Positions 11,101-31,839 of a stretch of DNA of 36,142 bases are shown piece by piece (positions within the stretch are counted from its first letter, which is position 1; each line of letters opens with the position of its first letter). The notes below the pieces were generated by a model. That model was given only the letters and a program-made list of their open reading frames with translations. It was not told the origin of the DNA and ran no database searches. The stretch comes from a virus. The position numbers and the translations under genes are program-made. The stretch spans positions 1 through 36,142 of IMG/VR virus record IMGVR_UViG_3300033153_002286; one strand, given 5' to 3'.

Positions 11101-11367
11101 GCAGCTCTTAACACGGGACACGCTAAGTACGGTGTCAGTGAAGAGGAGATGGATGTACTGTGGGGCAAGGCTAGTGGTAGTGGTAACTCTAACATAACTC
11201 TGGATGGGTTCACGCAGAAAGAATACAGACTTGGATACTATCATTCACCAGTCTTATCAGGGAACAGGACTGCTCTCTTTCAAGATAGGTTTGATGAGGC
11301 AGGTACAGGCAGCTATGCTATCCGCAGAAGATGGTACAACAGCCTAGTTAATGAGGAAAAGCTTTGA
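2101..11367 (+). CDS. Giant virion protein (3088 aa), large polyvalent/ejection-protein type
   Basis: One uninterrupted frame of 3088 residues, far longer than T7 gp16 (about 1300) and near the size of other giant podophage proteins. In order: an acidic N-terminus; a Gly/Ala-rich hydrophobic stretch at about 208-252 that could insert in a membrane; a charged helical region at about 400-600 with an internal repeat; a SAP-like helix-extended-loop-helix at about 1441-1475 (LLELAK..RTGNKDVIASNIV); and a C-terminal block resembling large polyvalent protein LPD38-type regions (about 2362-2395, K-x-ILS-x-T-x-HPRN-like; about 2597-2633, P-F-S-PQ-x-IKAL-R-P-FP-F-AE-VRNSYN-like). Start ATG 2101 overlaps the upstream gene by 11 bases, with AAAGG upstream. 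Likely packaged in the capsid and ejected with DNA. I see no convincing RNA polymerase, transglycosylase or protease motif. The family resemblance is by eye. Confidence 0.7.
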   Translation: MAIDFLDGLLGPSEQGITEDEQYLEELMASLKAAQPVAEVEEEAPPEEKRSFTEGLKAFGEGITEVPARLEASNLERQGASKYHRGVLDLQELAKNATAIVPFLDTDGNLTDEGRNRFNLIGGTNDEFQTRVPVESFRKLGDSLKSGSTMRDAVAGQIDTIQTALSAAQNLLLRGEFTRPGQSVYAKALFDEQGEFTSEEARDFMLSPEASVDVLADSLHSTMLVLGAAVAGGAAGSLFGPGGATFGAMQAAGFASYTMEKKRAFLDGMLKADVDVFNAEAVLDFIGHNPDKLAKIIGDSELEGISVGVPDAIAVGIGGLGTTKALEIAATPAKKGLVALVVKAAKVAGLVATEPLVQGFLGATGAGLAKVTTGQKINKAELLVEGWAEMLAFPGEATVGTAARRMDAYNKRKQEAELDELEDLLHTSLRTEASDAKGLVTTATAQAEASSVVNEDTEEIQKSIEEDGDAFFDDSDNPEYVAPEDLEGDTITEKMQVAMSTARSKRLAKEKAKKEQADTKEALKTETAKLTADDDPADARKKELQAAFQEGRDITAAQETADTLVAQQAQDRRRDELRAEFAKGRENIAAAAERLPEPVTTPESLESLADIEKGLGTGKKQAPKPLAKVPPSTVDTTAMKGVPRIEELPEPLIPEKLKSEFTAAEIQEATDVMMSLDLSVEQVSALAKQAGFEITLSEQGIPEVTEEELSRLAEATLITARELTAKAPTAKPETTTSKQAAADKAARLAALRTSMEQQEGEGIVQDTLTDTLLQDIDYKQELKDATLEGTGGRYRREASKKLSASMTAESIERSIANKEDLGKKRKLILTSLNATLRGRKDFTHKINGGNRLGIQWQFEEVLEDGTFILVKRSLNDDGTNGKRGAVFAVNFDTQTYPKLRNEGGSADSNTDLRTLAAKPSALFPTLQAAYKDLLRNSPNLFNSNTVIRELGPARNLQRSVNKAVDDAWITVEQVARQEVAVDNALGLLNTQEGTLRKHRRKPGNYSNAEKLKARADYIRIRQDWTSAEALLEYRRDTMVTPEQAEQDMLNAQADKLEMFERGYGNARGEPGTLTDVSAFIPSISADTDADVKTFMTEEEKEGIVSQRFDRATAVQILPDGSTRVLELKVGEKDNAYRVFVTGMSDGKLSAPISIGLSKFKGSAAGAKRVALKLALDKTAATDAKSEAGKQGKEDQAVINKYLASTKPGGNKANRQGKFAATDLRRRAALIDQSQELSNTIFLLDNVGVDEASTENPTEVQLPERSADALNLEGTGERTVQDLATDEEITRIATLTDNARISERAGVVAAMQVIDEQLLEFDTLRSHGEDTLAGQVETAPGRVDEKTGKRTLPAKSKDFGPTSMFEHNYPEAARHLREVEATEARLLREVEKAGETDARKETLRLISDKIFADVRDPNPDVASAGRDALGRWSHIELQTMYTRPQLLELAKTIKAKRTGNKDVIASNIVDKLAEQPANPESAPVHEQMAAILERQGFNPQAVTTREGRAILNIGYIKAMRDNLAAKGFSEAYINVAVRNITAGTGTEQAARAQAFINSKLLDPVTIDAFRLSLKESMEMQATLKASADLTTKLGVLVDYFGTNAEGLTEKDLMGGLKTVTGTEFAKTPDYIANPTTLETELAEEVGRDNLRAEIEGLQAEDARTDRPTETLSLEGPGRPLFGATNKLVTQEDLAEAVQQLQGKFRSIGIAEGDTTALLKIAAFVVEGGARTFAEFSTQMVKRVGEKVTPRLNDLWDSVTSTANPADDPRFTTDLIRVMPPKIDPVAVIPGHRPSAKALAAIEAKLRGENPVDALVYANQNQALNELANGLSEEYLLPTIRGATPALSKMVDGIVYGSRYMTQSTGVLPPIMRDAAMYLKGARDRTNANVVYMGLFPIKLRSILNEVGVKLGSHEHLQINKAITEYISGGMRESSIRKDFGVTIPMEAKALIAHFVPHKGALSAMAALIDAVPHKTQVAIDKSGDMWLNKSFQSSPFIGQLTAAYLPNQKAMDKIAVLGKDKPALVTGMMKAAHDYYTLPAEAEGFMSIPEHQLRRLIGGTNALYKADKNGRGSFILDPHPKLDDDGNPVLNKDGSPKMLQTTLKKATHAQLVEFILKRQPDTAQIDNFIRDMINSITEPKVGTTMGASAKGSDQSILKPKRLMQSQSAQIKSMIRDLQQAPNIDQDIVKALKEQQEDFSTYSRAEFVAELSAMDADMAAALDRSELEFAMTDVIREALHEITDPGALMVNSVAKIAGTIELSKALTAIVEMGINSGELAVGSTDIIAGKHTAKLGILRGKRLVAGLADTQYRDPRGEVHKVIEDGRPTIAGTPATINGLHDLIGAHAALETNLFMKTMYGAAAYTKYDKIILSFTAHPRNAVSSTEIAWGRGVFGTYLNPLVHAYTNPGAFLMGSRLALTELQQTLGEKQATTAANRLLSDEYLGNLAVAAAGRGITHDSIHTGTVIDLFSHLQTLSPDEWGMVMSNQTSLIRARDGRLVLASSKAGQAISMAASGVTTTAETMFRLEDEAIKIVAFLQRTGQFLIIQHPGTRQESMAYANKLVRGWLSMAGRKAMSVNELAEVELSMDMAAVNVIATFPTFSQAPQGIKALGRAPYISAFPTFNAEMVRNSYNHFMFSQRLIRGQLPLGVQLEGKAKERASKLGWGLMSQGFLVIAGQMLGLAMMNLVSMRAGRDPQDDDESASKLLAEAIVKHRYARDAYEFKNVFPGWYQNSNIMLVPGTLDVVNHTSNYIPTGFTMSEGAVLEAGYTLWNDAARIMGNDDLREHFKDKMMYQLGAAFMQAMGGLWFNEEVLISDFTDNLLARTGHSSENIDSVYRSFRNDTNQWIRSALTPNDNPWAEQTGEQGSEIPRQIGALITAVAGGLPPNTAVSQVIKAGQSIKSSAEMAENPATFVADVLTNTAAITGGVKYIEFNFMSDYEKKLRFQHAPSMMTATDTMLNSLFDPSWRLEGTEEQQFAEFKEMFDLQEGFRRNAFNNIHAALNTGHAKYGVSEEEMDVLWGKASGSGNSNITLDGFTQKEYRLGYYHSPVLSGNRTALFQDRFDEAGTGSYAIRRRWYNSLVNEEKL
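3718..3870 (+). repeat. Two-copy 33-residue-period repeat inside the giant protein
   Basis: At protein level, 3718-3771 encodes RKKELQAAFQEGRDITAA and 3817-3870 encodes RRDELRAEFAKGRENIAA. Nine of 18 positions are identical, and the offset is 99 bases (33 residues). The segment is charged and helical, probably a coiled-coil spacer. Confidence 0.6.
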
Positions 11368-14649: not shown

Positions 14650-14935
14650 CGTTCTCTAACTCCTTCTCTAGATTAGCCAAGGCCCGCCACGCCACCTTAG
14701 TAGAGTGGCGCACACTATCAGTATCCCTAGTACCAGCCTGCATAAGATGTCTCGTGAGGGCATCAAGCTCATCACCGCTCTTAGACCTGTCCCAGTGCAA
14801 CGGTGTGCCGGGATTGTGCTGCTCATTACCCATGAACGAACACTGTGCCACGGCAGCTATAGCATTAGGGAAGTATTTAAGTACACCACTGTATACTGGT
14901 ACTGATTTACGGCCTTCGGCTGTAGCAGGGAACAT
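14642..14935 (-). CDS. dATP/dGTP diphosphohydrolase-like protein (DUF5664 type)
   Basis: The 97-residue protein matches by eye the small phage family named dATP/dGTP diphosphohydrolase (DUF5664): a P-V-YSGVLKYFPNAIAAVAQCSFMGN block, an N-x-G-x3-HWDRSKSGDELDALTRHL block, and a final R-H-x-VAWRALANLEKEL helix. Enzymes of this group are thought to act on deoxynucleotides, converting dNTP to dNMP and pyrophosphate. ATG 14935 overlaps the TGA of the HD hydrolase gene (TGATG) with GGAGGAG upstream; a GTG one codon earlier is possible. The two genes are coupled, suggesting joint adjustment of the nucleotide pool during replication. Confidence 0.7.
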   Translation of the reverse strand: MFPATAEGRKSVPVYSGVLKYFPNAIAAVAQCSFMGNEQHNPGTPLHWDRSKSGDELDALTRHLMQAGTRDTDSVRHSTKVAWRALANLEKELENDA

Positions 14936-15633
14936 CACAGCTCCTCCATGGCACGGGCGATGGCCTCGTTCTGGTCATCATCTAGTTCACTGTACGTGTC
15001 CGGTCTCTCTGGATACCACACGGCAGTCAATGCCTCTATCAGATCATCAACACTCACGTCGCTGCCTACCAACTCATGGTACCTGAACATGAACGGGTAC
15101 ATAGGTGCGTGCCACAGGTTATCAGAGCTCTCGATGGCCTGCTGCCATGCGACTTGCATCTTACCGTGGTACGTGCCCGGCCTGTCACCAAATGAGAAGC
15201 ACTCGTGCTCGAAGATACGCTTGTCCGCCTGTGCTACAGGCGTAGACTTGCGGTATGTCAAGTGCTCACCTACAGTAACCAACGGTACATCTGGTGCAAA
15301 CTTATTAAGTATGGCACCAGCCAGCCTCTCCTCGTCACGTATCATGTCAGGGTACAGTACCTTGACTGGGTGTATGGTATCACCCATGTATGCCTCAGCT
15401 GCGTCGTGCAGCAGCGCCTCAAGCGCTAGCTCAGGCGGTACGTAGTGAGACATGATCAAGCAGTGGTGTGCCACTGTGTAGTCCTGCCTTATGCCCCCGT
15501 TGTAGCGTAGCATACGGCCTAGGCACCATGCTATGTCGCTCATCTGTAGGCTATCTGGCTCAGGGGTACGTATGTCCAGCAGTTCCCCGCTGTACGTGCG
15601 CACTACTCCCGGCCCGTGCTTATCGTTTGTCAT
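14935..15633 (-). CDS. HD-domain phosphohydrolase, dNTPase/5'-deoxynucleotidase-like
   Basis: A 232-residue HD-fold protein. The segment D20-I-x3 ... WCLGRMLRYNGGIRQDYTVAHH leads to metal ligands at H56/H57, H76-D77 (ALLHDAAEAYMGD, with E80 and D85) and D137 (AQADKRIF). This arrangement is that of YfbR-like and phage DatZ-like HD hydrolases, which remove phosphate(s) from deoxyadenosine nucleotides. In 2-aminoadenine (Z) phages DatZ depletes dATP, but no adenylosuccinate synthetase-like PurZ is in this window, so a Z genome is not shown. Start ATG 15633 follows GGGGAGTTAAAG. Coupled to the diphosphohydrolase-like gene. Confidence 0.75.
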   Translation of the reverse strand: MTNDKHGPGVVRTYSGELLDIRTPEPDSLQMSDIAWCLGRMLRYNGGIRQDYTVAHHCLIMSHYVPPELALEALLHDAAEAYMGDTIHPVKVLYPDMIRDEERLAGAILNKFAPDVPLVTVGEHLTYRKSTPVAQADKRIFEHECFSFGDRPGTYHGKMQVAWQQAIESSDNLWHAPMYPFMFRYHELVGSDVSVDDLIEALTAVWYPERPDTYSELDDDQNEAIARAMEEL

Positions 15634-21136: not shown

Positions 21137-21523
21137 CTAGTCCCTCCTGTACAGCTGCTCGCGCTTAAGTATTGCCTCCATAGGCGACTTCTTGATGTGA
21201 TCTTGTGTCCTAAGAATTGCCTCTATATGCTCATCTGATAGATCCATTATAGGTACACGCTTCAGGGGCTGATCACCACCTTTACCGTACGTACCCCACG
21301 TCACGACTTCACGTACATCTACGTGAGGGGAGTCCTCGTACAGCGTAAGATACTCCTCGTCACCCCACGCACTCGACCGTATGTAATCGTTGCCTCCGTC
21401 CAACATGTACTCGTTACCGTTAGCATCTTTGTGCGTAACGTAATCATGTACGTGGGTAGAGGTAATTATCGTACCGTCCGGGGTACGCAGGGAACTGTTA
21501 ATAATATGTCGTCGTTTACTCAT
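21137..21523 (-). CDS. Conserved phage protein of unknown function (128 aa)
   Basis: 128 residues with AAGGAGAGATGAGAG upstream of ATG 21523. The pattern RRHIINSSLRTPDGTIITS, THVHDYVTHKDANGNEYMLDGG, DYIRSSAWGDEEYLTLY and VTWGTYGKGGDQPLK is a recurring, strongly conserved small protein in many tailed phages, with no assigned role that I can name. The conserved His/Asp residues could be functional. It overlaps the phosphoesterase gene by 8 bases. Confidence 0.7.
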   Translation of the reverse strand: MSKRRHIINSSLRTPDGTIITSTHVHDYVTHKDANGNEYMLDGGNDYIRSSAWGDEEYLTLYEDSPHVDVREVVTWGTYGKGGDQPLKRVPIMDLSDEHIEAILRTQDHIKKSPMEAILKREQLYRRD

Positions 21524-22010
21524 CTCTCATCTCTCCTTTATCTAGTGAATCTATAAGTATAGGTATACCATCTAGAGCCTCCACACATACGTTGTGGTAG
21601 CGCTCGTCAGGTATAGTCTTAGCGTGTACGTGGCCGTGTACGTTACGGCATCCGTACAGTTCTTGCGGATGGATAGGGGCGTGACTTAACCAGAACCCTT
21701 TGTATCTGACCAACCCCATCATCACCCTGCCGTATGGCATGTAGTTAGTGACGGGCATCTTGTCGTGGTTACCAAGGATCATCTTCTTGTATCCGTTGAT
21801 ACGCCCCACCTGTAGCAGCCCTACGTTATTGAACGCTATGTCACCCAATATCCACAGTGTATCTTTCTTCTTGACGACAGTGTTGATGGTCTCTATCAGC
21901 CACTCGTCGTGTCCGTAGCTGTCCTTGTACGCGTCCGCGTTAGGACGTAGACCTGCTATGTTACGGTGCCCTAGGTGTAAGTCACTGATGACGTACACTT
22001 CATTGCTCAC
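21516..22010 (-). CDS. Calcineurin-like metallophosphoesterase
   Basis: 164 residues from GTG 22010, which overlaps the previous stop as GTGA and has AGGGAGTGAGTC upstream. All core motifs are present: D10-L-H12, G-D57, G-N81-H82-D83, SH110-AP-x-H and G-H127-V-H129, which bind two metal ions. Compact members hydrolyse phosphodiesters or nucleotides such as cyclic nucleotides or NTP-derived signals. Within the replication cluster it may act on nucleotides or on host signalling; the substrate cannot be read from sequence. Confidence 0.85.
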   Translation of the reverse strand: MSNEVYVISDLHLGHRNIAGLRPNADAYKDSYGHDEWLIETINTVVKKKDTLWILGDIAFNNVGLLQVGRINGYKKMILGNHDKMPVTNYMPYGRVMMGLVRYKGFWLSHAPIHPQELYGCRNVHGHVHAKTIPDERYHNVCVEALDGIPILIDSLDKGEMRDE

Positions 22011-22369
22011 GACTCACTCCCTATGATTGCTTGTAGTTCGTCAGCGTTTACTACGAGTCGTGTTATTCGCAGGTTCGTCTCCTTATCAAGAAATGTCACG
22101 CTGTATGAGGGCAGTTCTGATATTTTCTTTATGGTTGCTTGTAATTTGCCAATACTTTCACGTTGATTCAACAATCTGTCTGCCATAGGAATATCGGTTT
22201 TCAGGCATACTATTGTCTGCTCTGCTTCATCCATCTTAATGCCCACCAGCCTTAATACTTCAGTTTGTGCCAACATCAATCGCCTGTTTTCCATCTCCGC
22301 TGCTTCCAGTTTGTCGAGTAGTTGGTCATACTTTTCCTCACTGACCATTCCATCCCAATGCTCACTCAT
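22007..22369 (-). CDS. Coiled-coil protein of unknown function with distinct codon use (120 aa)
   Basis: ATG 22369 overlaps the helicase stop (ATGA) with GGAGAG upstream; the frame gives 120 residues. Residues 8-90 are helical with heptad-like spacing (YDQLLDKLEAAEMENRRLMLAQTEVLRL). The C-terminal 30 residues look beta-rich. It uses TTG, CTG and ATT more than the neighbouring genes, which favour CTA and ATA, suggesting later acquisition. Its position between helicase and phosphoesterase suggests an insertion. Function unknown. Confidence 0.6.
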   Translation of the reverse strand: MSEHWDGMVSEEKYDQLLDKLEAAEMENRRLMLAQTEVLRLVGIKMDEAEQTIVCLKTDIPMADRLLNQRESIGKLQATIKKISELPSYSVTFLDKETNLRITRLVVNADELQAIIGSES

Positions 22370-23577
22370 AGTCTCTCTCCGTAATCTCGTACACGTGTGT
22401 GCCACCTGTCGATAGCCACCGTGAAGTTATCGTGTACCCCACCCCGCTTGTTCTTCACGAGGGTGAGGCGTCGCAGGTCACGTAGATAGTAGTCGTCGTT
22501 CATGCCAATCATTACCATGATGTCGCACGCACCGGGCATGCCGATGTTACTGCCATCTATGTCACCACTGTTCAGTACCAAGGTATCACGTGCACTCTCA
22601 CTGGCCTGTGTCACGGACACAACTAACACGTTGTGCCTGCGGGCTAGGTTACGTGCGCCCTTACCTACTGCCTCTAATCTTAACGTGTTGTTCTCTGTCC
22701 TAGATTCTATGTTACGTAGCTGGTCAATGATCAGTACATCATAGTTATCTCTCCTTAACAGGGAATCTACCATCTCTATCGTGCCGGGGTCTAGGCCCTT
22801 GAACGTTATCAGCTCATAGCCACGCTCAAAGGCCCGCTCCATCACCATCTCTTTCTTAACAAACAGGTCTTCACCAGTCACGCCCGACAAGTTGGAAAGG
22901 AGACGTAAAACCAACTCCGGTATTGGGTCTTCGTTACCCACGTACAGGACTCTCAGTCCTTGCTGTATGAAACCCGAGGCCATGTTGATAGCGAACAGGG
23001 ATTTACCAGCCTCAGGCATGGCTGCCATGAGTAGGTGCTGGCCCCTTATCAAGCCGCCTCTTAGTCTTTGGTTAAGAGCAGATGGTGCAACTCGTATCAA
23101 GTTCTCCTCGTCGTACATATCCTCGAACTCATCGAGGTGTGCGCCGGTGTAGGAGTCCTCAACGTCTTGATCTATTTCTACCTCGTCATGTATATCCGTG
23201 TACTCTTGCAAGTACGTAGCCTGCATGTCGTGGTTCTTAGACAGGATAGCCTCAGCTAACAGCATGCCTATCCTCTCCTTCTCGGAGTCGAGTACCTCCT
23301 TACCTACGTTGACAGCGGATATGTCCACTGCGTATAGCTCAGTGAGGTAGTCGTTAAGTTCTCGTGCGTGCTTGGGTACGTCCCCAAACTTACGTGCTAG
23401 CTGTGCGTCCAGCACATCTGTGTCTACGTGGGATGCCTCCGCATCCATAGCGTAGTACTCAGTGACACCTGCTAGTACCGCCCTGCCCATCGGGGACAGG
23501 TCGCGTACGTACGTTGCCGCTGCCTCGTACTCTTTGCGGCTTGCTATGAAAGCCGCTAGTACCTTTACTTCAAACAT
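22366..23577 (-). CDS. Replicative DNA helicase, DnaB/T7 gp4 C-terminal type
   Basis: 403 residues from ATG 23577, which has AGGAG nine bases upstream. A helical N-terminal region of about 170 residues is followed by a RecA-type motor: Walker A at about 184-191 (AMPEAGKS), a GNEDP segment, Walker B at about 277 (VLIIDQLRN), a VVSVTQASES sensor region, and a basic C-terminal segment (VKNKRGGVHDNFTVAIDRW). It unwinds duplex DNA 5'-3' as a hexamer and works with the primase encoded just upstream. T7 fuses the two functions in gp4; here they are separate genes divided by a 93-base AT-rich spacer. Confidence 0.88.
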   Translation of the reverse strand: MFEVKVLAAFIASRKEYEAAATYVRDLSPMGRAVLAGVTEYYAMDAEASHVDTDVLDAQLARKFGDVPKHARELNDYLTELYAVDISAVNVGKEVLDSEKERIGMLLAEAILSKNHDMQATYLQEYTDIHDEVEIDQDVEDSYTGAHLDEFEDMYDEENLIRVAPSALNQRLRGGLIRGQHLLMAAMPEAGKSLFAINMASGFIQQGLRVLYVGNEDPIPELVLRLLSNLSGVTGEDLFVKKEMVMERAFERGYELITFKGLDPGTIEMVDSLLRRDNYDVLIIDQLRNIESRTENNTLRLEAVGKGARNLARRHNVLVVSVTQASESARDTLVLNSGDIDGSNIGMPGACDIMVMIGMNDDYYLRDLRRLTLVKNKRGGVHDNFTVAIDRWHTRVRDYGERL

Positions 23578-23670
23578 AGTTATGTCTCCTAGTCTATCTC
23601 TATCTATATAGCTATATATCTTGGTGATATATAGCATATATCTAGCACTATCTATCTATCTAGTATAGTG
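23578..23670 (-). promoter_or_regulatory. AT-rich spacer with stem-loop and GATA repeats between primase and helicase
   Basis: This is the only sizeable gap in the replication module. It holds a perfect 10-bp inverted repeat GCTATATATC (23611-23620) / GATATATAGC (23626-23635) with a TTGGT loop, and TATC/GATA tandem repeats on both sides (around 23595-23608 and 23648-23660). It has no T-run after the stem, so it is not a classic terminator. It could be a promoter/operator, an mRNA processing site or an easily melted DNA region. Confidence 0.5.
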
Positions 23671-24477
23671 TTAGACACCGAGTACCCCTAAAAAGTTCCG
23701 TAACTCATTAGAATCCATATCTTTTACGTCATCGTATATCCTGTGAACCCTTATGTCTGCTACGTTTCGTAGCTGTCTGGCCTGCTTGACTGCTTGCATG
23801 TGTGCGTCCGCATCAAGGGCTAAATTGATAGGATGCTCGCTGTCACGTGTCCATCTACGCAGGTCACGTAGCTTGGGCATTGTTATGCGGGTGCCTAGTA
23901 AGGCCACACCTATAACACCGTGCTTAGCTAAGCGCATGGCACTGAGTGGGTCTTCCACGCAGCATAGCTGGGTGTGTGCATCCTCACTCTCCGGTACGAA
24001 CCATGCTATACCTGAGTATCCCTCCTCGAACAGGCTCAAGGACTTAGGCTTGGTATCATCGTACGGCTTGGGCTGCCTGACAATGTCACCTCTACGTACA
24101 CCTACCCTATCTAGTATAGGTATTACTGCCCGTCCATCTCCTGTCACTCGTATAGCTAGCGGGGTATCGAAGAAGTTCATGTTGAACTCTGCTTCCTCTA
24201 GTCCCTCAAGTAGGGTAGTAGGGTACTCCCATGCCGTGCGTCTAGGGGGGTGGGCTGTAACCGTGCGGGTTACGAACGTCCCGTCTGTCTGCACACGCCT
24301 GTACCCTAGTGTGCATGATGCTCTCCAGCAGTTGCAATGAGCTGCTACCCCCTCTCGTGTTATAGTCAGGGAGCGCTCACGCTTGCTGCCGCCGTTACAT
24401 TCGGGGCACATGAACCTACCACGCTCCCCTCTGCCTACCTCGTTGGCTAACGCTTGTAGTTGTGTGTTAGTGTTCAT
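23671..24477 (-). CDS. DNA primase, T7 gp4 N-terminal type (zinc-binding plus Toprim)
   Basis: 268 residues. A zinc-binding domain has C24-PE-C27 and C48-N-C50 ... C55. A Toprim-like core follows, with E175-D176 (CCVEDPLSAMRLA) and the D222-A-D224 metal-binding pair (LALDADA). It synthesises short RNA primers on the lagging strand. The start overlaps the previous stop as TGATG with no strong ribosome site, so translation is probably coupled to the 408-aa gene. This links the amidoligase operon and the replication module in one transcript. Confidence 0.85.
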   Translation of the reverse strand: MNTNTQLQALANEVGRGERGRFMCPECNGGSKRERSLTITREGVAAHCNCWRASCTLGYRRVQTDGTFVTRTVTAHPPRRTAWEYPTTLLEGLEEAEFNMNFFDTPLAIRVTGDGRAVIPILDRVGVRRGDIVRQPKPYDDTKPKSLSLFEEGYSGIAWFVPESEDAHTQLCCVEDPLSAMRLAKHGVIGVALLGTRITMPKLRDLRRWTRDSEHPINLALDADAHMQAVKQARQLRNVADIRVHRIYDDVKDMDSNELRNFLGVLGV

Positions 24478-25703
24478 CAGTATGATACCACGTGGCCCTC
24501 CATTAGTTTAGTGCTCTGTTCATCAGTCATATGGTACTCTCTTACTAGCATACCTCCTGTTATGTCATGTGCACCCTCGTTAGGATTACTGGCTGGTGGA
24601 AATGGCACCCACACTACAGGCACAGCGTTCTTACGTGAGGCGGCACCTATGACATCTGGTGCAGTCCAACTACGCACACCATCAACACTAGGCGCACCGT
24701 ATTGATTGAGGTACTCTATTACATCACGTGTGTTACAAACGTTATCATATTGCGCATGATCATGGTCAGTTATCATGCACCCAGAGAACTGCTCGGTTAC
24801 ACTAGTGACTTTCGGGATCAGTACATCTCGAAGCATGATCTCTGCGCTATCACATATAGATTTACCTTCTATGCCCCATGCCTCTATGTATGTAGCAGCT
24901 ACCATGTTAGCCCCTGCCGTAACCCTGAGGTTCATCATGGGTAGCTCCGAGTCATACACCATATTATCTAGGCAATCTTCGTACGGGCCGCTGCTTTCAT
25001 ACTCTTCACTGATGTACTCATAGTTAGTAAACACGCCGACGATGTGCTCCCCTAACCACTTGACAGTGCTGGTACTAGGAGTACTACCGGCCTCTCCGTA
25101 CCCCTGCCGATCAGTTAGCTGGGCCACTACCATCTCTAAGAACTTCAGTCTACTATCGTCACACAGTGACCGTGAGAAGTGTATGATAAGCTGCCCTACC
25201 ACACCCTCTGCTAACGTCTTGTAATCATAATCACCATAGTCCTCATCGTACTCCTCTGTAGTGGTAGTACCTGTCAAGCTCCCACCTGCACCAAACGCCC
25301 CCTCTACCGCAATCAACAGCTTACTTAATTCACCTCTAGTAATATCTTCTGGGCTAGTGACGTACATGCAAGTACCACCACACATGCTAGGTAAAGACGA
25401 GGCCATGACTATAAGTGGCGGATCATCAGCATCAGCCATGTGTAGTATAGAGTTGCCATAAGTAACTTCCGACAAAGCATCTGGATTGCCAATCTGAACG
25501 CTAGCGATTGGCTTTAAGATAGGCATGCTAGGCACTAATAGGTGCCGCGTTCTATTTTTATCAACAAATAGCAGTAGTAACTGCTCAAGGGAGAGGTGGC
25601 GATCCCCGTGGAGTCTACCAGTAGTCATGCTTAGCAGCTTACGTTCTAACTTAAGGGCTACCTCTCCTGTACTTGGTACTTTACTAGGTGCATTGTATAT
25701 CAT
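24477..25703 (-). CDS. Unknown 408-aa protein in the amidoligase operon
   Basis: ATG 25703 overlaps the amidotransferase stop (ATGA). The N-terminal 130 residues look alpha/beta. A low-complexity loop at about 140-163 mixes Gly/Thr with an acidic Tyr-rich run (TTEEYDEDYGDYDYK). The remainder is probably globular, with a Pro-rich segment near residue 365. I find no nucleotide-binding, membrane or protease motif. Its location between the glutamine amidotransferase and the primase, with overlapping ends, suggests it works with the amidoligase enzymes, perhaps as scaffold, substrate or extra enzyme; this is inference. Confidence 0.65.
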   Translation of the reverse strand: MIYNAPSKVPSTGEVALKLERKLLSMTTGRLHGDRHLSLEQLLLLFVDKNRTRHLLVPSMPILKPIASVQIGNPDALSEVTYGNSILHMADADDPPLIVMASSLPSMCGGTCMYVTSPEDITRGELSKLLIAVEGAFGAGGSLTGTTTTEEYDEDYGDYDYKTLAEGVVGQLIIHFSRSLCDDSRLKFLEMVVAQLTDRQGYGEAGSTPSTSTVKWLGEHIVGVFTNYEYISEEYESSGPYEDCLDNMVYDSELPMMNLRVTAGANMVAATYIEAWGIEGKSICDSAEIMLRDVLIPKVTSVTEQFSGCMITDHDHAQYDNVCNTRDVIEYLNQYGAPSVDGVRSWTAPDVIGAASRKNAVPVVWVPFPPASNPNEGAHDITGGMLVREYHMTDEQSTKLMEGHVVSY

Positions 25704-27157
25704 GCTGCTACTCCTTCTATTACAGGCTTCTTAGACGGGGGGATTGGATCCCATATAGACCAGTCAACATCCTTTTCCCATGTCGATTGCATTAGGTGTG
25801 GGTGTGTGTTAAGGCTACCGACTGCCTCTTCGGTGAGTGTCTCGGTACCCTCCGCCTCCCATCCAGCAAACTCTAAGTCCTCTACACCCATGCCTATACT
25901 ACCCTCAGCGTATACCTTTAGGTTAGTGAGCGTACCGCGGAACAGTGGCACACGTGTAGACTTAGGGGTTACACGTAGCTCCTCTGCAAGAGCCTCTTCA
26001 TAGTCAATCATAGGGATAGGGCTAAGCTTACCCACCACAGGCATAGGCGCATGGCCTGCTACATCCAACCCACCGTATACCATGCCGGAGGTGTCACTGT
26101 ACACCTGCCCAATAAAGTCAACGGTTCCTACCATGTCCCCTCCACCAGCACTACAGGCTACCCTGTCCAAGCAGTCTCTAAAATCCTGTACATTAGAGGG
26201 GGCAATGGTCTTAAATATACGGCCAATAGAGCCTAGTATACTAGCTCTTAGCGGAGCCAAGGCAGTGCAACAGTTCCATATGTCAAGAGCTGAGGTCACG
26301 GTTATCCACCCATCGTTCCAAGTGTTACCTTTAGTCGGTGATCTTCTATCGTAATCCCATGGATCATAACTACCATTGTAGTAGTTCTCCCACCACGATG
26401 AATCGTTCCAAGAGGCACCGGCTGGTGCTACGTACGTGGGTGTGTACTCTTCTGCTGTAGCGGGGTCACCATTGATAGGTACTGTTAGCAACGTGTTAAT
26501 CTTTAGCTGCGTCGGTACTATGTCACGATAACCCAACGGATCAGCAGCGTACGTACGTGATAAGCACGACGCTATAGCCCCCGGCTCACTGTGCCACCAC
26601 CACATGTTGTTCCTCTTATGGAACCACAACGGACGTTCATCGTTGCGCGCAAACCTGAGCGCCTTGATACGTGCATCGTACCACACTAACACATAAGCAC
26701 CGGGATCAAGCAGCTTGAGTACATCAACAGCATCCGTCGGCTCCTTAGCAGAGATGGCCTTGTATATTGTCTCACTATCATTGATTCCCTTATGATCAGG
26801 GAAGTCAACATCAGTGTTGTGTATCGTGCCGTTGTGTACACCTATCACCATGTCCTCATTGAACGGATGGCATGCCTCTATTGTTATCCCGCCTAGTGTA
26901 GCTGCCCTAGTGTGGGCTATCACCCACCTACCGTCACGTGTCATGCTCTCCATGTCGTGACGTGACACCACCTCATGTGCTGCCTCTATTCCTTTACGGA
27001 ACACGGCGCCCTCGGTGTGATCTAATCCTCCTATGATTACCCCAGTACCATCCACACCACGCATAGTACTGGCTAGCATTAAGTTGTATTGAATACGAGC
27101 ACTCTCCAAGGAGTAGCCCGCCCTTCCTAATGATAAACTTCCTGATATTCCACACAT
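25700..27157 (-). CDS. Class II glutamine amidotransferase (Ntn-type) with long C-terminal extension
   Basis: 485 residues with AGGAGAG before ATG 27157. The N-terminal nucleophile is C2 (MCGISG). Other class II motifs are RGVDGTG (33-39), AHTRAAT (81-87, R84 binds the substrate carboxylate), HNGTIHN (108-114, oxyanion Asn109/Gly110) and NDSET (126-130). The domain hydrolyses glutamine to glutamate and ammonia. It usually delivers ammonia to a partner synthetase domain; here the C-terminal about 260 residues are unrecognised and include a Trp/Tyr/Asn-rich stretch (250-284). It lies just downstream of the Amidoligase_2 gene, so it may supply ammonia or a gamma-glutamyl group to the operon's ligases. 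Asparagine synthetase itself is unlikely, as no synthetase motif is seen. Confidence 0.85.
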   Translation of the reverse strand: MCGISGSLSLGRAGYSLESARIQYNLMLASTMRGVDGTGVIIGGLDHTEGAVFRKGIEAAHEVVSRHDMESMTRDGRWVIAHTRAATLGGITIEACHPFNEDMVIGVHNGTIHNTDVDFPDHKGINDSETIYKAISAKEPTDAVDVLKLLDPGAYVLVWYDARIKALRFARNDERPLWFHKRNNMWWWHSEPGAIASCLSRTYAADPLGYRDIVPTQLKINTLLTVPINGDPATAEEYTPTYVAPAGASWNDSSWWENYYNGSYDPWDYDRRSPTKGNTWNDGWITVTSALDIWNCCTALAPLRASILGSIGRIFKTIAPSNVQDFRDCLDRVACSAGGGDMVGTVDFIGQVYSDTSGMVYGGLDVAGHAPMPVVGKLSPIPMIDYEEALAEELRVTPKSTRVPLFRGTLTNLKVYAEGSIGMGVEDLEFAGWEAEGTETLTEEAVGSLNTHPHLMQSTWEKDVDWSIWDPIPPSKKPVIEGVAA

Positions 27158-27161
27158 ATAA

Positions 27162-28232
27162 CTACTCTCCTAGGTCTAGCGTTATCATTGACTCGTCACT
27201 TACTAACTCATCATAAAACGTACCAAGCGTAACTTCACCCTGTATACCTACACTAACAGATGGAGCAGCCCATTCACGTATCCTGTCCTCTGCGTCAGCA
27301 GGGGTTATACTAGGCATAGGCCTGCGCAAGCGTCTACGAGGGGATAGCCTACTCACTGTACTGGCAGGTACACCTTGGGTGAGTACATCTATCTTACGTC
27401 CGCACGCTAAGCTACTGTACACATCACACGTTTGTTGTGACGTAAGTTTCTTAGGTGCTACGTCCATCATGTAGCTTGCGTACTCAAGTAGATCGTGCCC
27501 GTTCCAGATAGGACGCATAGCTCCCTCTACTATGCCAGCACACATGTGTATGTACTCAGCTATACGATTTATTATACAGGCAGGGTTAGACATGGCAGGT
27601 GTCTGTAGGTGACGAAACTCCACGCTACCGTACGTATGTGTAGCCCCTAGGTTTAGGCCTGAGTATTTAGGGCTGCTTTGTACAGCCTGAGCCCATCCAA
27701 ACGAGGAGTCATCGAAGTAAGCACGCAGTAGGTCATGTACGTGTGCGCTGCCCTTTGACCAAGGCACACAGAACACAGACTCATCACGTCCATCACCTAC
27801 AAACTCATAGATACTAGGCTCATTGATGTAGTACCCAACAGCTATACGTGCGTACTGCTCACGGGTAGCGTGCCTTACGTTACAGTGCACGTGTACTGCT
27901 GCCCTGAACGTGTCGCATATACCCTCAAGCATAGGTAGCACCTGTGCCAGTGACATGAGCAACGTATCCCTAGGCATAGGCCCATTAGATACCAGCTCGA
28001 ACCCGTCGCCGCGTAGAGAGCCTTCGGATTTTATCTGCCACCTAGTAGCAGGCATATTGTTTATAGTGTGCATAGCGTCTGAGTAGGACATGCCCTCTGA
28101 CTCTATCTCTATCTCACACGCGTACAGCTTATGGTCTTCATCCGGAATAAGCAGGTAGCTCTCTGCCCCCAATCCCCACTCACTCCACTTAGCTGCTCTG
28201 AACGCAGCTGTGCTACTTGATAGGGCTTGCAT
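27162..28232 (-). CDS. Amidoligase_2-type glutamine synthetase-fold ligase
   Basis: 356 residues with AAGGAGGATATGATAG upstream. Features of the Amidoligase_2 (COOH-NH2 ligase) family: E40-x-E42 (CEIEIESE), W-x-IKSEGSLRGDGFELVS (65-82), paired histidines HVHCN (114-118), the EPSIYEFVGDGRDESVFCVP block (138-156), KYSGLNL (189-195) and GSVEFRHLQ (202-210). These enzymes adopt the glutamine synthetase fold and are predicted to join a carboxylate to an amine using ATP. The substrate is unknown. The C-terminal 100 residues, including an Arg-rich RRRLRRP patch (about 300), are specific to this protein. Confidence 0.85.
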   Translation of the reverse strand: MQALSSSTAAFRAAKWSEWGLGAESYLLIPDEDHKLYACEIEIESEGMSYSDAMHTINNMPATRWQIKSEGSLRGDGFELVSNGPMPRDTLLMSLAQVLPMLEGICDTFRAAVHVHCNVRHATREQYARIAVGYYINEPSIYEFVGDGRDESVFCVPWSKGSAHVHDLLRAYFDDSSFGWAQAVQSSPKYSGLNLGATHTYGSVEFRHLQTPAMSNPACIINRIAEYIHMCAGIVEGAMRPIWNGHDLLEYASYMMDVAPKKLTSQQTCDVYSSLACGRKIDVLTQGVPASTVSRLSPRRRLRRPMPSITPADAEDRIREWAAPSVSVGIQGEVTLGTFYDELVSDESMITLDLGE

Positions 28233-28704
28233 CTATCATATCCTCCTTGGCTACTGGGTTACACCAGTCACCTGTAGGTACTTGTTGTATATCGTCACCA
28301 CTAAGGTACTGTTCTGCTACCTTACCCTTGAACACGTATACCCAGCACGCCTGCTCATTAACAGTGACGGCCACTCGTGTGTACCAGTCAGGGTGATTCT
28401 CTAGCCAATCAAGATGCTCTACCTGATCTACCCAAGGCACCTCCCCTTCACTGAACATCTCCACTGTGACCTCGGCATCAGCATCGTCCGACTCCACTAT
28501 GAACGGGATGGTATCGTACGTAATGTTACTCATGACGTACAGCTTGTACCCCTTGAGTGTATGTACACCATGGCTGACAGCGGCACGTAACAGACCATGG
28601 TTCCAGTAACCTGAGCGCAGCGTGCCGTACACGGCTACGTAACCACATTCGTATGGATCAGGGTGGACTTGATGGGCGTGTGTCAAAGCATTTGAATTAT
28701 ACAT
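28213..28704 (-). CDS. Gamma-glutamylcyclotransferase-like (GGCT/AIG2) protein
   Basis: 163 residues with AAAGGAGATAACAT before ATG 28704. The family signature is VAVYGTLRSGYWNH (23-36), the substrate loop of the GGCT fold, and the catalytic glutamate is E102 (DWLENHPDWYTRV). Such enzymes release 5-oxoproline from gamma-glutamyl amines or peptides. In this operon it could reverse or process gamma-glutamyl links made by the ligases. A 19-bp-type palindrome lies just upstream (28723-28740), and the 3' end overlaps the Amidoligase_2 gene by 20 bases. Confidence 0.83.
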   Translation of the reverse strand: MYNSNALTHAHQVHPDPYECGYVAVYGTLRSGYWNHGLLRAAVSHGVHTLKGYKLYVMSNITYDTIPFIVESDDADAEVTVEMFSEGEVPWVDQVEHLDWLENHPDWYTRVAVTVNEQACWVYVFKGKVAEQYLSGDDIQQVPTGDWCNPVAKEDMIDASPIK

Positions 28705-28722
28705 ATGTTATCTCCTTTATAT

Positions 28723-28740
28723 ATTACGTACGTACGTTAT
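28723..28740. promoter_or_regulatory. Palindrome family member 1 (upstream of GGCT-like gene)
   Basis: ATTACGTACGTACGTTAT: a perfect 12-bp ACGT core with one mismatched pair outside it. It lies 19 bases upstream of the GGCT-like start and overlaps the end of the preceding gene. It is related to four other spacer palindromes in the early region. Confidence 0.5.
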
Positions 28741-29512
28741 TGGCTGTGACCTGCGGCACGGTGGTAAGCTTAGCCCGTATCACGGAGGTTACTGTAGCCT
28801 CTATAGTAGACGTTGGTTTGCATCGAGGGGTGAACACAAGGCGAGTACCCTGTATCTCTATGCGTCCAAGCATAGCCCCGTTAGTTAACAAGTAACCATA
28901 AGTCTCACCCTGTTCAGGCACGAAGGCTGTGTTATGGTTAAGTACGATAGGCCTAGCTTCCTTGGCTACCAAGCTATTGAGTACCGATAGATACCACGAC
29001 GAGGAGAACTCATTGTTCAGCCTGTGTGCTATCTCCTGCACTAAGCTAGAGAACGGTAGCATAGCTGCGCTACGAGGAGTCATGACCCTAGCTACTGCGT
29101 TAGACGTAGCGCCAGCATCTATCACTGGCATAGACTTGAGCCTGCGTGTGTGTAGTCCCTTGTGCCTAGAGCGTGGTGTACTGCTAGTCAGTAGCACCAG
29201 TGAATCGTTTAGCACAAAGTACCCTAGCTTAGGCTCATACGTAACCCAATCTGGGCTACGGAACGGAGCTAGAGGAGGCACCATAAGGGGCGACCCCCCG
29301 AAGTACCTCATGAACGGAATCATGCAGTCACGACAATCCAAGGACTCAAGGGTGTCACACTCTGAGTATATCAGGCACATCTCTCCGTCCTCATCCTCCA
29401 TCCTAGTGTCAGGAGTCACAGCAACCCAGCTATCCTCTATGATATGGAACAGTACCGATGTACCCCAATAGAAGTCGAAGTCGTGGAACGTCATCTCGCT
29501 ATAAGGAATCAC
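28724..29512 (-). CDS. Unknown 262-aa protein in the amidoligase operon
   Basis: The preferred start is GTG 29512, which has GGGAGGTGTGAC upstream and directly follows the stop of the type-2 ligase gene; an upstream GTG at 29530 lacks a site. The protein is mixed alpha/beta with an acidic Cys-containing segment (residues 38-65) and a basic stretch SRHKGLHTRRLK (about 114-125). No known motif is visible. Full embedding between two ligase-related genes suggests a role in the same pathway, perhaps a divergent enzyme or substrate-recognition subunit. Confidence 0.6.
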   Translation of the reverse strand: MIPYSEMTFHDFDFYWGTSVLFHIIEDSWVAVTPDTRMEDEDGEMCLIYSECDTLESLDCRDCMIPFMRYFGGSPLMVPPLAPFRSPDWVTYEPKLGYFVLNDSLVLLTSSTPRSRHKGLHTRRLKSMPVIDAGATSNAVARVMTPRSAAMLPFSSLVQEIAHRLNNEFSSSWYLSVLNSLVAKEARPIVLNHNTAFVPEQGETYGYLLTNGAMLGRIEIQGTRLVFTPRCKPTSTIEATVTSVIRAKLTTVPQVTANNVRT

Positions 29513-29513
29513 G

Positions 29514-30233
29514 TCACACCTCCCATACACTTGCTACCATGTCGAACACTAAGGATAGATAACTCTCGGCGTTAGTGGCGAGTAGAGCACTGGCACCTAA
29601 CGACCTGTACTCCACACCATAAGGAGTGGGACGGAACACTCTCCGCCTACGGTACCAGCTACCTTGACCCACGTTAACCCCATCCATAACCATAGGGTAC
29701 ACCACGTCATCCAACTCAGTGATGAACTGTGCGGTTAGCTCAGGGCTATCCAAGAACGGGGGAGGTAACGATATATGTATGTGTCCCCCACACTCACGCA
29801 CAGTAGCACTACGTACACTCGGAGGCACTGACCTACGCACAGTCGTACCGTTAGGTAGCACGGTGAAGTCAGGCATACACCCAATGTCCAGTAAGCGTGT
29901 AGCCCACCGCTGCCCCACTAAGGACGTGACATCAAAGCTGTCCATTGCGTGCAGGTCATAGCCAACTGCCGTTTGCGTACGAGCTTTACCTTCACGTATC
30001 CTGTGCATGAACTCATCCAAGCTAGGGGTAGGTGCGAACCCATACTCAGCAGCCAACCCATCACGGTGTGCCCAGTACCCATCGTGCAGGTCGAGGCGCT
30101 CACCCTTAGGGGGTAGGTTACCTAACAGCTCACTCCAAGCTTGCCACGAGTCATCACTGATAGCGTTGTACATAACAAAGGCAGGCATCAGCTCCATATC
30201 TGAGCCTACCAACCTTTCATTTACTCTTTGCAT
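29514..30233 (-). CDS. phiEco32-like COOH-NH2 ligase type 2 (second amidoligase)
   Basis: I use ATG 30233 (239 aa), the second of two adjacent ATGs, because GGAGAG is best spaced to it. The protein carries GSDMELM (10-16), a GCMPDF segment (118-123), CGGHIHISLP (148-157) and RPTPYGVEYRSLGA (201-214). This pattern matches the phage phiEco32-like COOH-NH2 ligase type-2 family, a glutamine synthetase-fold ligase distinct from Amidoligase_2. Expected activity is ATP-dependent amide formation; substrate unknown. It follows the 151-aa gene with a 17-base overlap. Confidence 0.78.
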   Translation of the reverse strand: MQRVNERLVGSDMELMPAFVMYNAISDDSWQAWSELLGNLPPKGERLDLHDGYWAHRDGLAAEYGFAPTPSLDEFMHRIREGKARTQTAVGYDLHAMDSFDVTSLVGQRWATRLLDIGCMPDFTVLPNGTTVRRSVPPSVRSATVRECGGHIHISLPPPFLDSPELTAQFITELDDVVYPMVMDGVNVGQGSWYRRRRVFRPTPYGVEYRSLGASALLATNAESYLSLVFDMVASVWEV

Positions 30234-30672
30234 CATTACTCTCCATAACCTCATTGATTATATCATCAGTAAAGGGATCACTAAGCACTACCCTCATAGT
30301 AGGTGCTACAGGCACGACCTTCTTTACTACCTGCTTGGTGGTTGTCTTACGTTCTTTACCGAACACCGCATCACCAGCTATAGTGATACTAAGTGCCTTG
30401 TCATTAAACGTACCACTCACCGGCTTGCCGTCCTTCTTAAGACGAGAGATAGCCACCATGGAGGGTGACGGCAGCTCGTCCCGCTCATCGGCGGCGAACT
30501 GAACTGACATAAACCCCGTGCACTGCTCCAGTGCTTTCTTAATGGCTTTCTTCTGAGATGACGCCGTGATCTTATCGACCATGATCTCTTCCATAATCCA
30601 AGGCGGCACGCCGTTACTACCTGTCTTGCGCGTGCGCCTAGGTACGGCTACTCGTGCTGAGTATACTGGCAT
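30217..30672 (-). CDS. Unknown 151-aa protein in the amidoligase operon
   Basis: ATG 30672 follows GAGGAGAAATAAACT. The product has a basic N-terminus (VAVPRRTRKTG), a likely helical, partly basic segment (ASSQKKAIKKALEQC), a beta-rich middle and a Lys-rich stretch (KERKTTTKQVVKKVV), ending in SNDAKSK. It has several lysines that could in principle accept isopeptide bonds. It overlaps the type-2 ligase start. No family is recognised; substrate or adaptor is speculation. Confidence 0.6.
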   Translation of the reverse strand: MPVYSARVAVPRRTRKTGSNGVPPWIMEEIMVDKITASSQKKAIKKALEQCTGFMSVQFAADERDELPSPSMVAISRLKKDGKPVSGTFNDKALSITIAGDAVFGKERKTTTKQVVKKVVPVAPTMRVVLSDPFTDDIINEVMESNDAKSK

Positions 30673-30675
30673 AGT

Positions 30676-30945
30676 TTATTTCTCCTCTATCTCAAGTATA
30701 ACTTTAGCCCCGACTACCTGCCTAAAGGTAGAGCCACTCTTAGCAAGATCGCAGCTACCCAGTACCTCCCCACCAGCTAAGAACAGCACTGTGTTACCGC
30801 CATTGTTACGGCGCATAACTATGTACCTACACCCCGAGTCGTTAGCAGAACCAATGTACACACCCTCTGGTGCCCTAGCCTGTAGCTCTCTACCATTGTA
30901 GCCCAGTTGTTTCCCTGCTTTAGAGTTGCATCGTAATACTTTCAT
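30676..30945 (-). CDS. Unknown 89-aa protein at the head of the amidoligase sub-operon
   Basis: ATG 30945 follows ATAAGGAGATATGTATA, a strong site placed immediately after a perfect 19-bp palindrome. The 89-residue product is small, beta-rich by appearance and contains Cys6, Cys39 and Cys65, ending in ILEIEEK. No family is recognised. The palindrome plus strong ribosome site suggests it is well expressed or regulated. Confidence 0.6.
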   Translation of the reverse strand: MKVLRCNSKAGKQLGYNGRELQARAPEGVYIGSANDSGCRYIVMRRNNGGNTVLFLAGGEVLGSCDLAKSGSTFRQVVGAKVILEIEEK

Positions 30946-30960
30946 TATACATATCTCCTT

Positions 30961-30979
30961 ATAACGTACAGTACGTTAT
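30961..30979. promoter_or_regulatory. Palindrome family member 2 (perfect 19 bp)
   Basis: ATAACGTACAGTACGTTAT: two perfect 9-bp arms around one central base. It overlaps the stop of the ATP-grasp gene and lies directly before the ribosome site of the 89-aa gene. It is a candidate operator, phage promoter element, or mRNA hairpin. Confidence 0.6.
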
Positions 30980-31839
30980 GTTACCTCATTAGCTAACCGG
31001 GCAAACGCATCGACAAACATACCTTGTGTGTTGCCAGCGTCTAAGCCCGGTGCTGAGTTGATCTCTACTAAGTACCACTCCTTAGTGGCGGTGTCTATCA
31101 GTACATCGACACACCCCCACGTGAGTAGCTTAGCAGTAGCACTAGCTATCTCCTCGAACACGGCTGGGTCGGTGACATCCATGTCGTTGTGACAGAACGA
31201 CCATCCGTTCTTCCACGCACGCACCACCTGCCGTATACGACTGTCCCACCATACATCAGCTTCACTAGGTGAAAGGAACTCAAGCAGCTTACGCCTGCTC
31301 TTTCGTTTCTTTTGCACCACGTCCACTAGCTTACCCTCGTTCATGAACACACGGTACTCACGTAGCCCACGCCTACGCTTAAGCACAGTGTACAAGCGAG
31401 CACTAGGCAGAGGGGCAGGAGGGCACAGCACTATACCTCGGCCACTGTGGGAGCTGACCAAGGTACGTGCTACTATAGTTTCCCCTGCATCTATCGCCTC
31501 TTGTGCATTGTCTATGTCTAGGTAATAGTCAAGGTGGTGACCCGGCGCTACCTCCTCGAACGCCTGTTGCATCTTAACCTTATCGCAAGATACCTTGACC
31601 TGATCGGGGTGGTTGAGGATAACACAGTCACGTGGCAGCCTGTCCCACCACACAGGGGTGGTACTAGTACCGTAGTTAATGAGTAGCTTCACTCGCTCTG
31701 GCCTGTACTTAGGCACGTGGTTAGGTGTGACACGGTACGCATCCACACCTAGTGCATTGAGTCGGCGTGTAATGAACGCTGACCAACACATAGTCCATCG
31801 TTTAGAGCGAGCAAGCACGAACACTTGCGGGTTATCCAT
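30976..31839 (-). CDS. ATP-grasp ligase (RimK-like)
   Basis: I use ATG 31839 with AAAGGAGAGATC upstream (287 aa). ATP-grasp features: lysines at 87-89 and R125 in the N-lobe, the flexible loop SSHSGRGIVL (129-138), E161-YRVF (161-165), KKR (177-179) and the metal site DVLID (245-249) with E259-I-N261-SAPGL. Such enzymes activate a carboxylate as acyl-phosphate and join it to an amine or thiol, as RimK does in adding glutamate to ribosomal protein S6. It is the first recognisable enzyme of the amidoligase operon; with two glutamine synthetase-fold ligases it gives the phage two kinds of amide-forming chemistry. Confidence 0.87.
   Translation of the reverse strand: MDNPQVFVLARSKRWTMCWSAFITRRLNALGVDAYRVTPNHVPKYRPERVKLLINYGTSTTPVWWDRLPRDCVILNHPDQVKVSCDKVKMQQAFEEVAPGHHLDYYLDIDNAQEAIDAGETIVARTLVSSHSGRGIVLCPPAPLPSARLYTVLKRRRGLREYRVFMNEGKLVDVVQKKRKSRRKLLEFLSPSEADVWWDSRIRQVVRAWKNGWSFCHNDMDVTDPAVFEEIASATAKLLTWGCVDVLIDTATKEWYLVEINSAPGLDAGNTQGMFVDAFARLANEVT

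Follow-up and report, generated by a model that had tools for sequence, protein, structure and literature searches.

The stretch of DNA analysed here (hereafter the window) is a single IMG/VR virus record of 36,142 bases, IMGVR_UViG_3300033153_002286, in which nine tightly packed genes read on the minus strand from 31839 to 24477 and lead into a primase gene. In 5' to 3' order these genes encode an ATP-grasp ligase, proteins of 89 and 151 amino acids (aa), a COOH-NH2 ligase, a 262 aa protein referred to below as G17, a GGCT-type cyclotransferase, an amidoligase, a class II glutamine amidotransferase (GATase)-like protein and a 408 aa protein (Table 1). Sequence comparison shows the locus to be no new kind of system: it is the amidoligase cassette known from virulent phages, complete though strongly diverged.

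The original prediction for this locus had described an operon of overlapping or near-touching genes running into the primase gene, and all nine of its open reading frames (ORFs) are present at the positions and in the frames that it gave. All nine are real genes, since for each the named frame alone gives a positive codon score and all other frames a negative one. The spacing between them ranges from -38 to +30 nt, and the ORFs of the 408 aa protein and the primase share 1 nt. The inner starts chosen in that prediction also look right, as Shine-Dalgarno-like sequences precede most starts in the run, inner ones included; for example, AAAGGAGAG lies upstream of the ATG at 31839 where the ATP-grasp gene begins, and GGGAGG lies upstream of the GTG at 29512 that opens the 262 aa protein. 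The COOH-NH2 ligase probably starts at 30236. More small minus-strand ORFs lie upstream of the run, so the run belongs to a longer transcription unit, and promoter- or terminator-like matches at the locus were not clearly above chance.

The five enzymes and their conserved residues

Profile searches confirmed all five enzyme names that had been proposed, two of them in Pfam and all five in PHROGs. The two Pfam matches above cut-off were GATase_6 and GGACT. None of the three ligases reached the Pfam cut-off, and of these the ATP-grasp protein gave a hint of R2K_2 below it (E = 0.0012). The nearest PDB relatives of the ATP-grasp protein in a profile search are alpha-L-glutamate ligases and RimK. 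Across 15 phage homologues the invariant residues are G142, G144, E170, R172, K186, D254, E268 and N270 in the ATP-grasp protein (numbering from 31866), D19, E21, E70, H158, H160, E215 and R217 in the COOH-NH2 ligase (numbering from 30254), and E42, E44, E46, E79, H114, H116, R149, E205 and R207 in the amidoligase. The GGCT protein carries a YGTLRSG motif (YGxLRxG) with invariant positions, and its candidate catalytic glutamate, E82, is aligned in most homologues. In the GATase-like protein the MCGISG start, R84, N109-G110 and D127 are conserved in the alignment. As the family-wide invariant residues are intact in all five enzymes, nothing suggests decay.

The GATase-like protein also gave weak NCBIfam matches to the N-terminal regions of GlmS, PurF and EgtC. 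Behind residue ~200, no acceptor or synthetase domain of the GlmS, PurF or AsnB kind was matched in Pfam or NCBIfam, and the C-terminal 280 residues are uncharacterised. None of the nine proteins matched a PADLOC model of known anti-phage defence, and none belongs to the EgtB, EgtD or EgtE families in Pfam or NCBIfam.

Table 1. Genes of the nine-gene run, its downstream neighbours and a recurrent small protein of related loci
Feature	Position	Strand	Evidence
RimK-like ATP-grasp ligase, 287 aa	30976..31839	-	phrog_2599 E 2e-34; ORF open from 31866
89 aa protein, directly after ATP-grasp gene	30676..30945	-	coding score 0.28; no family match
151 aa protein	30217..30672	-	coding score 0.24; no family match
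phiEco32-type COOH-NH2 ligase, 240 aa	29514..30236	-	phrog_3815 E 3e-17; ORF open from 30254
G17 core protein, 262 aa, LUZ24 gp17 homologue	28724..29512	-	phrog_4877 E 6e-4, profile and slot
GGCT/GGACT-type gamma-glutamyl(amine) cyclotransferase, 163 aa	28213..28704	-	PF06094 E 3.5e-18; PHROGs E 1e-14
Amidoligase_2-type ligase, 356 aa	27162..28232	-	phrog_7469 E 1e-28
Class II GATase-type protein, 485 aa, N-terminal Cys2	25700..27157	-	PF13522 E 1e-9; phrog_4736 E 1e-36
408 aa protein between GATase and primase genes	24477..25703	-	coding score 0.15
DNA primase, 268 aa (context)	23671..24477	-	phrog_47 E 4e-11
DnaB-like helicase gene, after primase	22366..23637	-	context
GcvH-like protein near ATP-grasp (related loci)	L046:10911-11354; L002:10927-11211; 14 further loci		type B or partial cassettes only

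A cassette shared with distant phages

With the window amidoligase, tblastn retrieved 292 phage records, and the amidoligase, COOH-NH2 ligase and ATP-grasp proteins retrieved 242 to 292 each, all below 60% identity. The same gene set is annotated in LUZ24, NV1, the phiEco32-like Bas88, CW02, QDWS535, Zobellviridae, one Rhizobium phage and one crAss-like phage. Given this wide distribution in annotated phages, the cassette is not a special case of the present one. No close relative of the window was found by megablast against phages or by a peptide-pattern search of IMG/VR with the amidoligase or DNA polymerase. In a genome collection of 84,980 species, patterns built from nine phage ligases, which would miss distant ones, placed the ligase in only 12 contigs, all from metagenome-assembled genomes. 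Most of these contigs hold the rest of the cassette and several hold phage-type helicase or polymerase genes, and we therefore regard it as a phage system.

A further 80 loci were gathered from IMG/VR with an ATP-grasp profile, and gene content was compared in the 44 loci whose ATP-grasp gene is flanked on each side by 6.5 kb or more. The COOH-NH2 ligase, amidoligase, class II GATase and ATP-grasp genes occurred together in 44/44 of these, a co-occurrence that is conditional on the loci having been collected by ATP-grasp seeds from cassette phages. G17 was present in 43. At least one gamma-glutamyl-cleaving enzyme was found in 43/44 loci, either GGCT (21/44) or a peptidase C26 GATase (33/44; PF07722, E = 4e-17); the two are not mutually exclusive, both being present in 11/44. 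The COOH-NH2 ligase, G17 and the amidoligase follow one another in this order in 75/75 loci having all three. The core comprises these three, the class II GATase-like protein and the RimK-like ATP-grasp protein, with GGCT in addition. The proposal that the enzymes form one joint system is supported by these data, in which the genes are together and not scattered over related phages. A chance grouping of unrelated auxiliary genes with no joint function, for which nothing speaks beyond the lack of an assay, is contradicted by the 44/44 co-occurrence and by an order that stays fixed while the proteins are ~20-30% identical across loci; we consider it highly improbable.

Two main gene orders were observed, GATase-ligase-G17-amidoligase-ATP-grasp (type A) and ligase-G17-amidoligase-GATase-ATP-grasp (type B). 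In the window the ATP-grasp gene comes first, as in two other loci, and the GGCT gene lies between G17 and the amidoligase. Cassettes adjoin primase/helicase and polymerase genes, and the window conforms with its primase and DnaB-like helicase. Phage DNA hypermodified with amino acids is known to occur, and the constant position beside replication genes would suit a cassette that builds an amino-acid or polyamine nucleotide derivative for such DNA. However, the cassettes showed no recurrent partner for DNA modification, such as a base hydroxymethylase or a kinase, and we hold this explanation to be decidedly unlikely.

Among named systems, LUZ24 (Bruynoghevirus) gp16-gp22 and Vicosavirus NV1 gp16-gp22 resemble the window in having the COOH-NH2 ligase, G17 (~190 aa there), amidoligase, class II GATase, ATP-grasp and GGCT in one run before a primase/helicase gene, with proteins ~20-30% identical to those of the window. 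In the window, by contrast, the ATP-grasp gene leads the run, GGCT separates G17 from the amidoligase, and the 408, 151 and 89 aa proteins stand in place of gp14/gp15 and small proteins. The phiEco32-like StefiGeyer_Bas88 has the same enzyme set in the same neighbourhood but in the order ligase-G17-amidoligase-GATase-ATP-grasp-GGCT, with two large upstream unknowns. The best full-set match is Alcaligenes phage vB_Af_QDWS535 (amidoligase 31% and ATP-grasp 32% identical), which also has DnaB-like helicase and primase as separate genes; unlike the window, its GGCT lies ~4 kb from the ligases, a GcvH-like protein follows the ATP-grasp and the 408 aa protein is absent. The Zobellviridae CW02 and CVT22 share the core genes but have the GATase first, a peptidase C26 GATase and 8 to 16 small proteins that share a tail.

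The four remaining proteins, which had been put forward as candidate substrates, carriers or additional enzymes, are not of one class. The 262 aa protein matches phrog_4877, the PHROG of LUZ24 gp17; a profile built from 68 G17 relatives with the 262 aa protein left out matches it at E = 2.4e-7, and hhalign against G17 gave P = 2.5e-4 with the next-best family at P = 0.09. From these matches and its position in the same slot we take it to be G17, the sixth core gene. An AlphaFold2 model of a G17 relative, built with 58 aligned sequences, is confident (predicted local distance difference test score, pLDDT, 91.6), and its first 70 residues aligned to small beta-barrels. The model had no match in the PDB below E = 0.001. 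The best structural alignment, to the C-terminal SH3-like domain of biotin protein ligase (VIA-align Z 7.1, root-mean-square deviation 2.5 over 58 residues), has a score typical of common small barrels, so we assign no function from it. Viral structure matches of the model are uncharacterised phage proteins, one of them from CW02. We also note that no G17 gene was detected in two cassettes, L018 and L014 (cr108_1), the latter a crAss-like phage with two related unknown proteins of ~300 aa adjoining its ligases.

For the 408, 151 and 89 aa proteins none of the cassettes searched contained a relative, so nothing ties them to the pathway; they may be parts of it peculiar to this lineage, or else unrelated passengers. 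The 408 aa protein had no relative in phages (tblastn), PHROGs, Pfam, cassette-family profiles or IMG/VR, and its single-sequence fold was unusable (pLDDT 32). For the 151 aa protein, tblastn against phages found nothing at E = 1 and no relative appeared among cassette families; Pfam, PHROG and cassette-family searches found no relative of the 89 aa protein. Between the GATase or ATP-grasp gene and the primase gene, some loci encode a family of 220-329 aa with a conserved CRD motif, c34 (L015:9986-10975, L081:10990-11895, L008:11749-13088). We considered it as a positional analogue of the 408 aa protein in view of the GATase-primase gap that it occupies in L015 and L081, and found no sequence similarity between the two.

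A cassette of six to seven enzymes is kept by hundreds of virulent phages, and the window, as a very distant complete copy, sharpens the distinction between core genes, including the unannotated G17, and optional ones. The main gains are a defined core, the assignment of one unknown protein to G17, and candidate substrates that can be tested in cultured relatives.

Small proteins with shared C-terminal tails

With a bearing on the substrate, several related loci encode sets of small proteins with different bodies and one genome-specific C-terminal tail. With a minimum of four such proteins, tail sets occur in 12 of the 119 cassette loci that span 12 kb or more, and none was found in 75 loci lacking core genes (1.5 Mb of T7-like, N4-like and other contigs; Fisher p = 0.002). 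These counts call for caution, as the lineages cannot be treated as independent, some bodies are akin to one another and local duplication may play a part. Tail sets were noted in L210 (CVT22), L010, L099 (CW02), L097/L012, L021, L028, L055, L058, L088, L030, L056, L065 and L212, mostly of type A, with 4-16 small proteins per locus. Citrobacter phage CVT22 has 16 proteins with the tail LENE, two of them INE variants; Klebsiella phage Asterion has LENK, CW02 has LEEN(V/L/I), Rhizobium-type phages have GDxxDDI and L212 has KEDWL. In whole records or long stretches of four phages, 32 of 45 tailed small ORFs lay inside the cassette interval, against 5 of 69 untailed ones (Fisher p = 6.7e-13). In the Rhizobium-type loci L012, L021, L028, L055, L058 and L088, which carry the GDxxDDI-tailed proteins, the ATP-grasp gene is followed by genes for a second class II GATase and a GGCT-like protein.

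The tails do not appear to be pure translation signals in L028 and L212, where synonymous sites vary freely while the residues are kept, indicating conservation at the protein level. In CVT22, Asterion and CW02 the tail codons include the GGAG Shine-Dalgarno sequence of the next gene, so that tail conservation is confounded in that group. Since CVT22, CW02 and RHph_I3_11 are in culture, their tail-sharing proteins make the question of a modification target testable by mass spectrometry.

A second recurrent small protein is GcvH-like, with a lipoyl-hammerhead fold family match (PF01597, E = 2.5e-5 in L046) and without the lipoyl lysine. It lies near the ATP-grasp gene, usually overlapping its stop, in 14 of 31 type B loci and in none of 41 type A loci. 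The window has no GcvH-like protein; its 89 aa gene fills the slot in which 14 relatives have one, yet the two show no sequence similarity.

It is tentatively possible that the cassette is a protein-modification system, in which the ligases would extend or decorate the C-termini of the tailed small phage proteins, or of a GcvH-like carrier in other lineages, and the GATase-like, GGCT and C26 enzymes would trim gamma-glutamyl groups; the substrate in the window would then be the 89 aa protein, the 151 aa protein or both. An alternative that we also hold to be possible, though doubtful, is that the product is a free small metabolite, for example a gamma-glutamyl amine or peptide, with an effect on host metabolism or a host defence. 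Ligases of the gamma-glutamylcysteine synthetase type usually use free amino acids, and GGCT/GGACT and PuuD-like C26 enzymes use free gamma-glutamyl amines; however, the RimK-like ATP-grasp protein points toward protein C-termini, and in several relatives tail-sharing proteins lie between the ligase genes.

Proposed function

We infer that the cassette encodes a pathway in which gamma-glutamyl or peptide amides are formed and cleaved. The three ATP-dependent ligases would attach glutamate or related residues to one substrate via amide bonds, and the GATase-like protein and GGCT would act on the gamma-glutamyl bond, so that glutamyl residues would be partly removed again. The GATase-like protein would either supply ammonia or, given that no acceptor domain was recognised in it, cleave gamma-glutamyl amides in the manner of EgtC. 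The closest solved relatives of the ATP-grasp protein suggest a protein or peptide C-terminus as the target. The substrate would most likely be a small protein or peptide produced early in infection and encoded next to replication genes, with G17 serving as an accessory or adaptor protein. Similar attach-and-remove logic is known from butirosin synthesis (BtrJ/BtrG) and putrescine degradation (PuuA/PuuD). In ergothioneine synthesis EgtA makes and EgtC removes a gamma-glutamyl group (PMC11993508), a pairing of a gamma-glutamyl ligase with a class II GATase-type remover that is like the cassette and is echoed in the weak EgtC match; without EgtB, EgtD and EgtE partners among the nine genes, it is not the same pathway.

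Taken together, we consider it somewhat probable that the window holds a complete, diverged cassette that joins and trims gamma-glutamyl amide bonds on a small protein or peptide, with G17 as an accessory. In support of this, the tail-sharing small proteins are concentrated between cassette genes in several relatives. Several points weigh on the other side. The window itself has no tail-sharing proteins, just 12/119 cassette loci have them, and the co-occurrence depends on how the loci were collected. At the sequence level the 262 aa protein resembles G17 weakly, and the 485 aa GATase-type protein could possibly hold, in its uncharacterised remainder, an acceptor domain that escaped detection. 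Further, in agreement with the original prediction, the literature searched contained no phage example with a defined product and no measured activity of any cassette member.

Modification of a host cell-wall or surface component, for instance to block superinfection, has also been proposed, and PMC10580990 reports such a prediction for phiEco32, citing Iyer et al. 2009. GlmS/PurF-type class II GATases and amide ligases do serve wall and sugar chemistry. However, enzymes for glycosyl transfer, sugar nucleotides, export or membranes were not seen to recur in the cassettes, Pfam gave no match to the GlmS sugar domain in the GATase-like protein, and the cassette genes are placed among replication genes, so we view a wall or surface product as unlikely and favour the trimming of gamma-glutamyl amides on a small protein or peptide.

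Finally, the replication module of the window also includes, on the minus strand, a 5'-deoxyribonucleotidase-like protein (14935-15633; phrog_318) and a phosphoesterase (21516-22010; phrog_547). On the plus strand, a 3088 aa ORF (2101-11367) without a PHROG match probably encodes a giant virion protein, and its neighbours at 34-630 and 630-2111 are also without PHROG matches.

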